Positions 17,365 through 21,154 of a DNA stretch of 64,000 nucleotides are shown piece after piece (positions within the stretch are counted from its first letter, which is position 1; every line of letters starts with the position of its first letter). Under the pieces are notes generated by a model that saw nothing but the letters and a program-made list of their open reading frames with translations, was not told the origin of the DNA and made no database searches. The DNA lies in NCBI GenBank assembly GCA_029213045.1, contig JARGPN010000016.1:124001-188000 (forward strand), written 5' to 3'. The position numbers were made by a program, and so were the translations under genes. The DNA comes from Alcanivoracaceae bacterium (GTDB lineage: Bacteria > Pseudomonadota > Gammaproteobacteria > Pseudomonadales > Alcanivoracaceae).

Positions 17365-18687
17365 ATGACTGATATTGGCCTGAAAAGATACCGACTTATA
17401 TTCTACGGCAACCTCATGTTAGAGGCCGATCCTGACGCCGCCCGAGCGGCCTTCGCCAAGCGCTATAAATTAAATGATCAGAAGCTCACTGCCAGCTTTT
17501 CTGGCCGTAAGGTTGCGCTGCATTCGGAACTGAACGAACAAGATGCCTACCGAATCCAAAGCGAATTGGAAGATATCGGCCTCATTACCCATCTTGAACT
17601 ACTCGAAACAAGCAAATCACCGCAAGCCGCACCAACAAAGAAAAAGACTGCGATACCTCCGCTAGAAAAGCGAGCAGACCCCACGCGGGCAAACACAGCC
17701 CAAGAACCTGCCCAAACAAGTGCGCCCAAGGCAGACTCTCGCCATCTCACGCCGTGCCCGTCATGCCGCCAGCCCATCGAACCGAAGGCCTTAAATTGCC
17801 GCTATTGCGGTGAACGCGTTGGTAAACGCAGCTTAACGTGGCTGTGGCTATCCGCCGCCGGCTTGCTGTTGGCGGTCGGCATTGGCGGCTTGCTGTCTTT
17901 CATCGCCCCTCTTTACCAACAGCAAGTAAGCAAATCATCGACCACTCGCGCCATCAGCAATGGCATCGAGGAAGCGAAAGCTATCCAACAACCTGTACGC
18001 GAATTTATCGGCAGAACTGGATTCTGGCCGAACACTAATTTAGATGCGGGGCTCGACGAACCGCAAACGTTCCGCACCGAATCAACCGACAGCCTGACCG
18101 TGGGCAATAAAGCGTTAATCATTCTTACATTTAACACAGACCTCCCAGACATTGGCGGAGAAACTCTGCTGTTCGTTCCTCAAAAAGAACCGGACGGGTC
18201 TGTTAGCTGGCGCTGCGATGGCGGCTCACTCGCTATGGAGCTGCGCCCTACGGAATGCATTCCCCCCGACGTAAGCGCTTATAAAAAGCCAGAAAAGGCC
18301 AAGCCATTAGACGTCACATCACTGCCCTCGCTACCCAGACAGAACACTCAAGGGCCATCAGTGTCGCGCGTACATCAAGTCATTCGAGACGAAATCGCCA
18401 ACACTGCTCATGTTCGGCAGGCGTTAATGGCCGGCCTCATGGAGGGAGATTGGCCCTTTAACAACGGCAATGCTGGCTTGCCGGAGGGCCGCAAAATTGC
18501 ATCCGCCAACTTCCGACGTGTTGAAGTACAGATGGGTGGAAAGATCATGTATGAATTCTCCGACGCCATTTATGGATTCGAGGGGCACAAGCTTTACCTC
18601 GTACCTACCAGTATCGGCGAGTGGCGCTGCGAAGCTACCTTCCCAGAAAAATACGTTCCACCAGACTGCGGCGGCGGCGTGCGTTAG
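17365..18687 (+). CDS. Membrane protein with zinc ribbon and two pilin-like domains
   Basis: A 440-residue protein of unknown function. Residues 1-80 form a small alpha/beta domain seen at the N-terminus of varied proteobacterial membrane proteins (it contains FSGRKVAL). A Lys/Pro/Ala-rich linker leads to a zinc ribbon (C131, C134, C145, C148) and one membrane helix (about 158-180). Beyond it are two similar domains that resemble the globular part of type IV pilins: the first has TGFWPNTNLDAGL and a Cys pair (C284, C298), the second GDWPFNNGNAGLPEG and a Cys pair near the C-terminus (WRCEATFPEKYVPPDC). There is no prepilin cleavage site. The N-terminus should be cytoplasmic and the pilin-like part periplasmic. 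Confidence 0.75.
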   Translation: MTDIGLKRYRLIFYGNLMLEADPDAARAAFAKRYKLNDQKLTASFSGRKVALHSELNEQDAYRIQSELEDIGLITHLELLETSKSPQAAPTKKKTAIPPLEKRADPTRANTAQEPAQTSAPKADSRHLTPCPSCRQPIEPKALNCRYCGERVGKRSLTWLWLSAAGLLLAVGIGGLLSFIAPLYQQQVSKSSTTRAISNGIEEAKAIQQPVREFIGRTGFWPNTNLDAGLDEPQTFRTESTDSLTVGNKALIILTFNTDLPDIGGETLLFVPQKEPDGSVSWRCDGGSLAMELRPTECIPPDVSAYKKPEKAKPLDVTSLPSLPRQNTQGPSVSRVHQVIRDEIANTAHVRQALMAGLMEGDWPFNNGNAGLPEGRKIASANFRRVEVQMGGKIMYEFSDAIYGFEGHKLYLVPTSIGEWRCEATFPEKYVPPDCGGGVR

Positions 18688-18721: not shown

Positions 18722-18830
18722 CCATCTAACCCATTGAAATACAATAATCTTTAAAACCTTCACTCCGTTTCTCACGACCTCTCTAAGCACCTAAACGACG
18801 ACCATTCGTCGGCTTTTCCCTATGCAAAGA

Positions 18831-18865
18831 TTGACCTAATCTAGATTTGGGAATATTTTCCCAAA
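18831..18865 (+). promoter_or_regulatory. Promoter with -10 inside a perfect palindrome, before DUF6502 gene
   Basis: A -35 box TTGACC (18831-18836) and a -10-like TATTTT (18854-18859) are 17 bases apart. The -10 lies inside the inverted repeat TTTGGGAATATTTTCCCAAA (18846-18865, eight-base arms, four-base spacer). The predicted transcription start would fall at or just before the ATG at 18867, so the message may be leaderless and the palindrome is well placed to be an operator. Inferred from sequence only. Confidence 0.5.
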
Positions 18866-18866
18866 C

Positions 18867-19688
18867 ATGAAGGACGCAAATTCAATCATTCTGTTGGCAC
18901 TGGCACGATTACTTAGACCGATCGTCCGTATTCTGCTGCGCAACAAGGTGTCCTATAAGACATTTGAGGAGGTAGCACGGCAGGTTTTCGTAGAAGTGGC
19001 GGATGAGCATTTTGGTGTCACTGGGCGAAAGCAGACCAACAGCCGAATAAGCGTGGTCACCGGGCTATCGAGAAAAGAAGTATTACGTATTAAGCGGTTA
19101 TCGCCCCTGGAGGACAGGGACTTGGCGGACCAGTTTCATCGGGCCGCGCGCGTGGTCTCCGCATGGACATCGGAAACGGATTTTATGGACGCTCAAGGCA
19201 ACCCAAAAACGCTACCTTTCGACGGCCCGACGAACTCCTTTAGTGCGTTGGTCGAGCGGTATAGCGGGGATGTGCCAGCACGCGCCATGCTTGATGAACT
19301 CGCCGCCGCAGGCGTGGTGGAAGCGGACTTTAACCGTCAGATAACGCTTAAACGCCGCAGCTATGTGCCCTCAGGTGACGACACCCAGATGCTGCGTCTG
19401 CTCGGCACCGATGTCGGCGATTTAGCCAACACCATCGTGCACAACTTTTCAGTGCCAGCCGATCAATCTCGCTTCCAACTAAAAGTTGCTTACGACAATT
19501 TGCCAGAAGATGGCCTCGCGCACTTTCACAACATGGTGTCAGAGCGTGGTTACGAAGTCTTAGTCGACTTCGATAAATATTTGCGTCAACAAGACAGGGA
19601 CACCAACCCGTCAGTAAAAGGTCGCGGAAAAGTGCGCGCGGGGGTTGGTATTTACTACTTCCAAGAACAACAGGAAGACGCGCTATGA
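18867..19688 (+). CDS. DUF6502 family protein, possible DNA-binding regulator
   Basis: A 273-residue cytoplasmic protein I assign to DUF6502 from its N-terminal pattern (LARLLRPIVRILL followed by SYKTFEEVARQVFVEVA). Residues about 55-75 (ISVVTGLSRKEVLRIKRL) look like the recognition part of a helix-turn-helix, so DNA binding is a reasonable inference. The C-terminal half has no motif I know. It overlaps the next gene, a DUF5666 lipoprotein, by four bases (ATGA), which implies translational coupling. There is no ribosome site before its ATG; the upstream palindrome abuts the start codon. Confidence 0.7.
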   Translation: MKDANSIILLALARLLRPIVRILLRNKVSYKTFEEVARQVFVEVADEHFGVTGRKQTNSRISVVTGLSRKEVLRIKRLSPLEDRDLADQFHRAARVVSAWTSETDFMDAQGNPKTLPFDGPTNSFSALVERYSGDVPARAMLDELAAAGVVEADFNRQITLKRRSYVPSGDDTQMLRLLGTDVGDLANTIVHNFSVPADQSRFQLKVAYDNLPEDGLAHFHNMVSERGYEVLVDFDKYLRQQDRDTNPSVKGRGKVRAGVGIYYFQEQQEDAL

Positions 19689-21091
19689 AAACGAAAAACT
19701 GGATTCATGTTTCTGCGCTAAGCGCGCTCTTTTTGGCCGTCGCATCTTGCGGTGGCGATACATCGCAATCATCAAATCGCCCAGGTAGTGGCGACGAATT
19801 TGCCAATGGTGGCATCGGCGGTTCCGGCTCCGGTACCGTGTCCGACTATGGTTCAATAATCTTCAACGGTATTGGCGAAAACGGTCGAGAATTCCAAGTC
19901 GAAGCGCACACGCTGTTAACTCTCGACGGAGTTCAAATTCCGTTCGTGGATGGTCACAGTGAATTGCCACTAGGGGCGACTGCGGAATTCTTGATTGGCG
20001 AAGACGTTGAAGAAAATATGACCGGCGGCACGGCTACCGCGATCCGGGCATTCCACCAAGTGATTGGTCCAATCACCAACGTGTCTCCGCTGGAAGTCTT
20101 TGGTCAGCCAGTGGTAATTGAAGACGGCACCGTATTAGGAGATCGTCCGGACTGCTTAATTGACCCAGAAAACGTTTCACTCAATCAGGTCATTGCGGTA
20201 GCGGGTGCCATAGATCAAAACGGTAAAATTAAAGCGACTCGTTTTGTCGATGCAGAATGTGACGCGGTGACTACCGAGTGGAAAATTCGCGGGCGAGTAG
20301 CCAATAGCGCCGCAAATGAGTTCACCCTCGGCGGCCAGTCAATCACCACGCTCGGCACTATTTATACGAATTGCCCAGTCTCACTTCCGCTACCAGACGG
20401 GCAAAAAGTACTAGTGACCACACCGCGCGGCATTCCGGCAGACAGCCTAAACGCCAACGAAGTCGAGTGCTTAAGCGAAGGCCTAACCATTTTGAACGGC
20501 TACCCTGAAGTGCCTGATAACTTACCGGTAAGTTACTCCGGTGTGATTACCGATGGCCCTGCATTACCACTCGTAGAGTTTGTAGCGAACGGTAGCGTTA
20601 TCTTAGAAATCGACGGGCAGAAAGTGCGGATCAGCGCACTCAACCTTGAAGTAGTCACCGGCACTCTTGGCGTCGATGCCCTGCTGCAAGCGCTAATCCC
20701 TGGCGCTCGCATCGACGTCGACGGCACGCTGGGTAGTGACGGCATTATTGACGCAAAACATGTGAACTTGCTGGACGACCTCACGGGCGTTATCACCGAC
20801 ATACTCGGCGGCTTGCTGGGTGGCTTGGTGCAAACATCAGGTGAGAACGCGCAGTACATCAGTTCGCCACTGGTCGATGCCCCATTTGAAAGTTTTTCCG
20901 CTGATTCATCGATGGAAGTGTCTTTACTAAAACTCTCAGCGAACAATGAATCGCAAATAGAAATCGTCGCGGTTGGCCCAAGCCAACCCGGCTCTCAGAT
21001 CCTTGCCGCACTGCAAATTGGCAATGAGGTGGCTTTCCCCACCGCAGGAGAAGTTGCTTTCGAGCGCCGTATGGTTGCGCTCCGGAACTAA
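19685..21091 (+). CDS. DUF5666 domain lipoprotein
   Basis: A 468-residue exported lipoprotein. The signal peptide ends in the lipobox AVASC, with Cys22 as lipidation site, followed by a Gly/Ser-rich tether. The body repeats small beta domains of the DUF5666 kind, for example around WKIRGRVANSAANEFTLGG and again near the VEFVANGSVILEIDGQKVRI region. Such domains resemble OB-type barrels; no activity is known. The absence of Asp after the Cys favours sorting to the outer membrane. It is co-transcribed with the DUF6502 gene and followed by a strong terminator. Confidence 0.75.
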   Translation: MKTKNWIHVSALSALFLAVASCGGDTSQSSNRPGSGDEFANGGIGGSGSGTVSDYGSIIFNGIGENGREFQVEAHTLLTLDGVQIPFVDGHSELPLGATAEFLIGEDVEENMTGGTATAIRAFHQVIGPITNVSPLEVFGQPVVIEDGTVLGDRPDCLIDPENVSLNQVIAVAGAIDQNGKIKATRFVDAECDAVTTEWKIRGRVANSAANEFTLGGQSITTLGTIYTNCPVSLPLPDGQKVLVTTPRGIPADSLNANEVECLSEGLTILNGYPEVPDNLPVSYSGVITDGPALPLVEFVANGSVILEIDGQKVRISALNLEVVTGTLGVDALLQALIPGARIDVDGTLGSDGIIDAKHVNLLDDLTGVITDILGGLLGGLVQTSGENAQYISSPLVDAPFESFSADSSMEVSLLKLSANNESQIEIVAVGPSQPGSQILAALQIGNEVAFPTAGEVAFERRMVALRN

Positions 21092-21124
21092 TCCCCCCTG
21101 GGCACGAAAGTGCCCAACCCCTTG

Positions 21125-21154
21125 GCCGCGTTCGCCAGAACGCGGCTTTTTTTT
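21125..21154 (+). terminator. Intrinsic terminator after the DUF5666 gene
   Basis: Nine-base arms GCCGCGTTC and GAACGCGGC enclose a four-base loop, followed by eight T. This ends the DUF6502-DUF5666 unit. Confidence 0.93.

Follow-up and report, generated by a model that had tools for sequence, protein, structure and literature searches.

A start-codon palindrome conserved among DUF6502 genes is the predicted operator of an autoregulated operon with an exported partner

The window analysed here is a 64,000-nucleotide (nt) stretch from an Alcanivoracaceae bacterium (assembly GCA_029213045.1, contig JARGPN010000016.1, positions 124,001 to 188,000). It contains a gene of the DUF6502 family, a downstream lipoprotein gene with a DUF5666 domain, and an inverted repeat lying beside the start codon of the first gene. 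Computational comparison with other DUF6502 loci revealed a conserved site, a recurrent promoter geometry, co-variation of the operator with the protein, co-occurrence of site and protein across genomes, and association with an exported partner. We propose that the two genes form an autoregulated operon, in which DUF6502 would act as an autorepressor at its own start-codon palindrome, be translated from a leaderless message and control exported proteins; we place the probability of this reading at roughly 0.82. On the comparative sequence evidence given below, the palindrome at 18846-18865 is a conserved DUF6502 operator. The features of the locus are as follows.

18796..18811, plus strand: terminator-like hairpin of the upstream gene (consensus match only), ending 19 base pairs (bp) before the -35 element
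18831-18836, plus strand: -35 element TTGACC (sequence; consensus match)
18846-18865, no strand: predicted operator palindrome TTTGGGAA-N4-TTCCCAAA, with the core TGGGA-N6-TCCCA at 18848-18863
18854-18859, plus strand: -10 element TATTTT inside the palindrome (sequence), separated from the -35 element by a 17-nt spacer
18867..19688, plus strand: DUF6502 gene, a predicted autoregulator whose ATG is a predicted leaderless start (PF20112, E 3.5e-74)
18954..19094, plus strand: helix-turn-helix, residues 30-76, including R69 (secondary structure of the model; VIA matches over 28-82)
19116..19361, plus strand: middle winged-helix-like domain, residues 84-165 (VIA matches to IclR, MarR and CRP winged helices over about 82-165), at the position of the HetR flap
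19380..19670, plus strand: C-terminal domain, residues 172-268 (model), a candidate effector domain at the position of the HetR hood
19672..19675, plus strand: AGGA (sequence), 9 nt before the lipoprotein ATG, a candidate ribosome site for that gene
19685..21091, plus strand: lipoprotein gene with DUF5666 (E 6.9e-9)
19808..19828, plus strand: partner motif GGIGGSG, residues 42-48, after the lipobox Cys22 (sequence; family comparison)
20066..20242, plus strand: best DUF5666 stretch (Pfam), OB-fold-like (oligonucleotide/oligosaccharide-binding; Foldseek OB-fold matches)
21124..21154, plus strand: intrinsic terminator-like hairpin with T run, 3′ of the lipoprotein gene (sequence)

A first-pass annotation of the sequence had described the -35 and -10 elements, their 17-base spacing and the position of the -10 within the repeat, and these elements and coordinates proved correct. 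The repeat had also been called perfect, which holds for its two 8-bp arms (TTTGGGAA and TTCCCAAA) and not for the 4-base centre TATT, with one non-complementary pair. As had been noted, the repeat ends one base before the start codon (C at 18866, ATG at 18867), no Shine-Dalgarno (SD) sequence is visible ahead of this ATG on inspection, and the two genes overlap by four bases (ATGA at 19685-19688; lipoprotein ATG at 19685-19687, DUF6502 stop at 19686-19688). Because terminator-like hairpins lie before the -35 element and behind the lipoprotein gene, the pair is probably a transcription unit of its own. The gene upstream (17365-18687) encodes a protein with a pilin domain and, more weakly matched, a zinc ribbon, and the first of these hairpins separates it from the DUF6502 promoter. 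A consensus promoter scan of the region returned two promoter-like sites against 2.6 expected from shuffled sequence; this was not significant, and the scan was therefore left out as evidence. In the 3.17 Mb genome this locus has the sole copy of the arrangement TTGAC-N18-TANNNT-N7-ATG (control matches, 0) and the sole exact repeat TTGGGAN6TCCCAA; at one mismatch the repeat has four further genomic sites, against six for a control pattern, which is no excess. The strong evidence for the palindrome is the comparison across loci.

DUF6502 genes were drawn from relatives (present in 8/38 genomes), from the class (76/274 genomes, giving 76 positive and 198 negative) and from named genome contigs, where 170 relatives were found and the best 80 of them used. 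A scan of the named contigs with a single protein found no relative; an alignment query then gave the 170. Five of 108 profile matches lacked the N-terminus and were excluded, and nine class-genome matches were left out (two each in G099 and G218, and G089:C28, G229:C15, G204:C7, G054:C25 and G042:C144). Removal of 9 duplicates from 183 starts left 174 unique DUF6502 starts, 103 from the whole-genome set and 71 from the other set. Expected palindrome counts were obtained from dinucleotide shuffles.

The exact sequence TGGGA-N6-TCCCA was found upstream of 53/174 unique starts compared with 0.04 expected; allowing one mismatch raised the count to 73/174 compared with 0.9 expected. Among representatives at 50% identity, the exact palindrome was present in 13/55 (0.02 expected). 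At 56 of the 174 loci, for example L181 (Alcanivorax sp. 1008), a palindrome with no more than one mismatch stops 1-6 nt, most often 3, short of an in-frame start; 55 of these starts are ATG, and the lone TTG (L247) is soon followed by an ATG in the same frame. In this start-adjacent class TTGAC begins 16-18 nt ahead of the palindrome core in 41/56 loci, and at the -10 offset a mean of 4.48 of 6 positions agree with TATAAT. An SD-like word precedes only one of the 56 starts, compared with 24/117 other DUF6502 starts and 77/109 downstream open reading frames (ORFs) with a lipobox. Within the named set the start-adjacent form was found in 18 Nitrospirota, 8 Pseudomonadota and 1 Deferribacterota loci, with class genomes besides. 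Lack of the palindrome at other DUF6502-DUF5666 loci had been named by the first-pass annotation as a refutation; the palindrome was kept at the same place in the promoter at these 56 loci, from more than one phylum, and further loci have it at other distances. The remaining 118 loci comprise 42 with the palindrome farther upstream, 16 with a form spaced by N5, 7 with a more distant site only and 53 with none by our criteria.

The spacing of TTGAC, -10 and ATG places the expected transcription start at the start codon or directly beside it, and a leaderless DUF6502 message is therefore strongly predicted for the start-adjacent class, in Pseudomonadota and Nitrospirota alike. The leaderless transcript proposed earlier thus stands as a prediction from geometry for this class and is not valid for all loci; the predicted form is common among DUF6502 loci, not universal. 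Two loci, L186 (Deltaproteobacteria) and L228 (Desulfobacteraceae), have the palindrome at a greater upstream distance, with TTGAC also set off by a few more bases, and messages there should have leaders. A leader is likewise expected at L239 (Desulfatitalea alkaliphila), where the palindrome is about 127 nt upstream.

These observations are consistent with a model in which a presumed DUF6502 dimer would bind TTGGGA-N6-TCCCAA through its N-terminal helix-turn-helix. Because the palindrome holds the -10 element of a near-consensus sigma-70 promoter, the bound dimer would block RNA polymerase and repress its own operon. With transcription beginning no more than about one base from the ATG, the DUF6502 message would be leaderless and weakly translated, while the lipoprotein, with a ribosome site of its own, would be produced in greater quantity, an imbalance also reported for acuR, whose operon is leaderless. 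Repression would be released by a signal, probably acting on the C-terminal domain. Four loci carry two successive palindromes ahead of one gene (L066, at -83 and -45; L140; L142; L148), which suggests more than one dimer site.

AcuR is a TetR-family protein. In Rhodobacter the acuR-acuI-dddL message has its 5′ end at the AUG and is leaderless with no SD sequence; acuR is the first gene of the operon, an operator inverted repeat lies over the promoter, AcuR is autorepressed and acrylate-responsive, and the regulator is translated less than its downstream partners (PMC3017554; here and below, cited papers are represented by excerpts of their text). DUF6502 is likewise first in its operon, without an SD sequence and predicted to be leaderless, and its operator-like repeat overlaps the promoter of its own operon, a feature of AcuR-type operons. 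The two differ in that DUF6502 matches PF20112 alone in Pfam and AcuR responds to acrylate. Lambda CI and the TetR of Tn1721 are further regulators translated from leaderless mRNA (PMC3017554). Their protein families are unrelated to that of DUF6502. To our knowledge, neither has a lipoprotein partner.

DUF6502 might instead bind the palindrome as an activator or dual regulator. HetR, its closest fold match, regulates its own promoter positively (PMC4649674, in the excerpt available), and at the 42 upstream-site loci some 40-340 nt separate the palindrome from the conserved part of the gene, so that overlap with the -10 is not required. The start-adjacent promoters, by contrast, have the -10 in the palindrome together with near-optimal hexamers and spacing; an activator would not be needed there and a bound dimer would occlude polymerase, which makes activation unlikely.

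The spacing of the operator was found to switch with the protein. Within 400 nt upstream of the 26 DUF6502 genes of one clade (clade B), TGGGA-N5-TCCCA occurs 11 times exactly and 17 times at up to one mismatch, and the N6 form not at all; for the remaining 148 genes the N6 form occurs 76 times exactly and 102 times at up to one mismatch, and the N5 form 0 times exactly. Other spacings from 3 to 10 gave no exact match in the same 400 nt and 0-2 at one mismatch. All 16 N5 operators belong to loci of this single clade (Shimodaira-Hasegawa-like approximate likelihood ratio test, SH-aLRT, 99). In the putative recognition helix, residue 68 is His in 26/26 clade B proteins, and Arg69 is invariant in 170/170 aligned DUF6502 proteins.

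Site and protein also co-occur. Promoter-like sites, with TA at the -10 position, were detected in 22/76 DUF6502-positive and 1/198 negative genomes (Fisher p 8e-13); we read the lone negative site (G105) as part of a longer hairpin just behind a tRNA-like end. It is one of three negative-genome sites inspected, the others lying before a DUF5666 gene (G223) and before no clear target. In the positive genomes there are 43 exact sites, 20 of them away from the DUF6502 operon. Eleven of these 20, chosen for a promoter-like centre, were inspected: five precede DUF5666 genes, two a beta-propeller gene and one a carboxypeptidase-regulatory-like lipoprotein gene, while three have no clear target. Several promoters at trans sites retain TTGAC and a -10 within the palindrome but have a leader, some with an SD sequence (L151, L160). 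In other genomes the site thus also lies ahead of additional DUF5666 lipoprotein genes and a beta-propeller gene, and the DUF6502 family may therefore run a small envelope regulon. At L154 and L155 (near 5174 and 5459; two genomes of one genus), the palindrome and an upstream TTGAC precede a lipoprotein-like beta-propeller protein (PF09826), a candidate regulon member outside DUF5666. For the promoter-like palindromes of positive genomes at L149, L153, L158 and L146 (7497), no target gene could be assigned.

Taken together, spacing, co-occurrence and trans sites point to DUF6502 itself as the binder of the palindrome, and we infer this role from them. The DNA-binding role proposed by the first-pass annotation is strengthened by the co-variation and co-occurrence; its idea that DUF6502 controls its own partner lipoprotein agrees with the partner association described below and was too narrow, as the same site precedes other exported proteins. 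That the palindrome belongs to a separately encoded regulator, with DUF6502 as one among its targets, would fit the presence of the site before other genes, once in a genome without detected DUF6502 (G223, L160), but the distribution of sites with a -10-like centre (22/76 against 1/198) and the switch of operator spacing with the DUF6502 clade render this very unlikely. An RNA hairpin at the start codon, or an incidental promoter feature, is hardly credible: the repeat touches the start codon region, but it is not transcribed from the predicted start, it lies away from the start codon in the trans sites and the 42 upstream-site loci, and its arms and spacing are conserved where its centre varies.

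The protein itself is a confident family member (249.5 bits to PF20112 against a curated cut-off of 27). An AlphaFold 2 model built from 92 sequences has a mean predicted local distance difference test score (pLDDT) of 91.9 and shows, in order, a long N-terminal helix, a helix-turn-helix, a winged-helix-like middle domain and a mostly helical C-terminal domain; the HTH-like segment reported from sequence is thus recovered as the modelled helix-turn-helix of residues 30-76. A literature search outside subscription papers returned no mention of DUF6502.

DUF6502 is accompanied by a particular kind of exported protein. A DUF5666-type lipoprotein, as called by our own profile, follows the gene in 135/167 testable loci, and in 49/53 of the start-adjacent class. 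DUF5666 was present in 64/76 DUF6502-positive compared with 8/198 negative class genomes, and in 8/8 relatives with DUF6502 compared with 3/30 without. The partner in the window has a predicted signal peptide and lipobox, its Cys22 being invariant in an alignment of 14 partners. Its model is of middling confidence (mean pLDDT 64.1), and Foldseek matched it to OB folds of ribosomal protein S1, cold-shock proteins and LysRS, and to CcmE.

The exported proteins directly downstream of DUF6502 have in common the motif G-[ILVMF]-x-G-[TS]-G, for the most part in the form GGIGGTG and typically 8-12 residues past the lipobox cysteine. It was found within the first 110 residues of 136/163 partners compared with 3.4 expected from shuffling, the ORF finder having taken some wrong frames that were scored as misses. 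Partners that our profile does not call DUF5666-type carry it as well (15/26). Ten of these were scanned against Pfam, and none matched DUF5666 at E up to 0.1. Calx-beta, carboxypeptidase-regulatory and fn3 domains were found in one, another is of the FadL type and the rest have weak or no matches; nine of the ten carry the motif, the exception being L009, with the FadL-type body. Among DUF5666 proteins, the motif is present on the copy directly behind DUF6502 (92/108) and nearly always absent from others, with 0/13 for those upstream and 2/19 for those elsewhere; the two latter (L026 and L196) we assume to be displaced partners. Other proteins of the same loci have it in 4/328 cases, three of which we read as nucleotide-binding-loop-like and one as a DUF6502 partner. 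On this distribution, the motif goes with DUF6502 and not with DUF5666. The counts of 0/13 and 2/19 also disfavour a general lipoprotein sorting signal.

A comparison of DUF6502 alignment columns between loci with G-[ILVMF]-xGTG and with GETGTG or GTxGTG partners gave no clue to a motif pocket. The partners at L078, L089 and L091 are 93-96 residues long and, as we read them, secreted-looking without a lipobox, with GGIVGTG or SGIGGTG after the signal peptide; those at L078 and L091 have no Pfam match. Literature listings outside subscription papers showed no described function for DUF5666 (PF18914); for the motif they showed a single paper, on antifungal peptides.

Several observations weigh against the proposed operon model. 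At the 53 loci without a palindrome, none was found within 400 bp and no near-exact one in the flank, of up to 3 kb. These loci make up 45/103 of the whole-genome set, where flanks are mostly 1.5-1.7 kb, compared with 8/71 of the other set, and variant arms were seen in some (L050, L052, L013, L072). Three orthologues from the window's own family (L004, L005, L008) have the right half-site only. TTGA(C) stands at the expected offset in only 11 of the 42 upstream-site loci, so the palindrome may act differently there. The named-contig loci were picked by a peptide pattern in the DNA-binding domain, a bias of that set. The bare 12-base pattern is present in 20/198 DUF6502-negative genomes, and in one of them, G223, the site precedes a DUF5666 gene (L160); this assembly is only 81% complete, and G082 of the same genus has DUF6502. 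Finally, a second DUF6502 in two Alcanivoracaceae genomes (L009, L010; also L165) keeps the start-codon palindrome and has no motif-bearing GGIxGTG neighbour; at L009 a FadL-type outer-membrane protein lies about 220 bp 3′ of it, and at L165 a 1027-residue lipoprotein follows.

The DUF6502 model resembles in fold HetR, the master regulator of cell differentiation (heterocysts) in cyanobacteria, and we do not claim membership of that family. HetR is an autoregulated DNA-binding protein of three domains (DNA-binding, flap and hood) that recognises a GGG...CCC palindrome (PMC4649674, PMC4192349). The top three Foldseek matches are all HetR (E 7.2e-3, for 3qod_A, to 1.8e-2; probabilities 0.97, 0.95 and 0.69), with the first non-HetR match at E 0.25. 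In VIA the best match is HetR 4j00_A, at a Z of 8.2, on the edge of the meaningful range of VIA, over 219 residues (model 9-268 on HetR 13-298) with a root-mean-square deviation (rmsd) of 10.2. Template modelling scores between HetR and DUF6502 are 0.25-0.38 at an rmsd of about 10 Å, and the domains therefore do not superpose as one body. The resemblance is one of fold only, because sequence comparison gave homology no support: the HetR profiles PF03574 and PF18460 did not match, PF20112 being the only match of DUF6502 even at E up to 10; hhalign gave a probability of 0.3%, with little power because the HetR side had three sequences, two of them sharing 89 and 92% identity with the first; a PDB sequence search with DUF6502 was weak or negative; and in HMMER 46-135 of 3000 shuffles of the Anabaena HetR sequence scored equally high. 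Homology at the level of sequence was dropped after the hhalign, PDB and HMMER comparisons. An alignment by eye of HetR LTRPFYAPADD with DUF6502 LKRRSYVPSGDD, and a helix-strand-helix-strand last domain, are at most suggestive. A search for further HetR relatives among plasmids, phages and viral contigs found none at the sensitivity applied, and no report of HetR homologues outside cyanobacteria was recognised in titles and abstract openings, subscription papers not being covered.

The likeness of the two systems is that HetR is the best full-length fold match to DUF6502 and both have GGG/CCC palindromes. HetR requires GGGN5CCC, its hetP site being the 17-mer GAGGGGTCTAACCCCTC (PMC4192349), whereas in DUF6502 sites GGG and CCC are separated by N8, or by N7 in clade B; the clade B site GAGGGAAATATTCCCTC (L078) has the total length and arm style of the hetP site with GGG and CCC two bases farther apart. 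The peptides differ likewise: HetR is inhibited by PatS, PatX and HetN, which have RG(S/T)GR in common (PMC7761841), whereas DUF6502 partners carry G-I-x-G-(T/S)-G without the arginines. The similarity is striking, but only three letters, G-(S/T)-G, are alike (PMC7476756, in excerpt). We regard it as doubtful that DUF6502 is a non-cyanobacterial branch of the HetR superfamily, with the partner GGIxG(T/S)G peptide as a ligand like RG(S/T)GR for HetR, and HetR/PatX-like signalling by DUF6502 and its partner is speculative. Were it so, the hood-like domain would read the partner peptide, as an unexported precursor or a returned fragment, and tune the synthesis of exported proteins.

For DUF6502, a family of unknown function in several phyla, the results point to a probable function, an operator site and a set of genes that may form its regulon. 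The start-codon promoter geometry predicts leaderless translation in very distant bacteria, and the partner motif, which recurs in proteins with otherwise dissimilar domains, offers a tangible lead to the signal. According to PMC7761841 (in excerpt), HetR is confined to filamentous cyanobacteria and hetR arose in them; if the resemblance were homology, it would bear on the origin of the heterocyst regulator, and if the peptide hypothesis were true, the pairing of regulator and peptide that underlies heterocyst patterning would have an older origin and a far broader range than the cyanobacteria.

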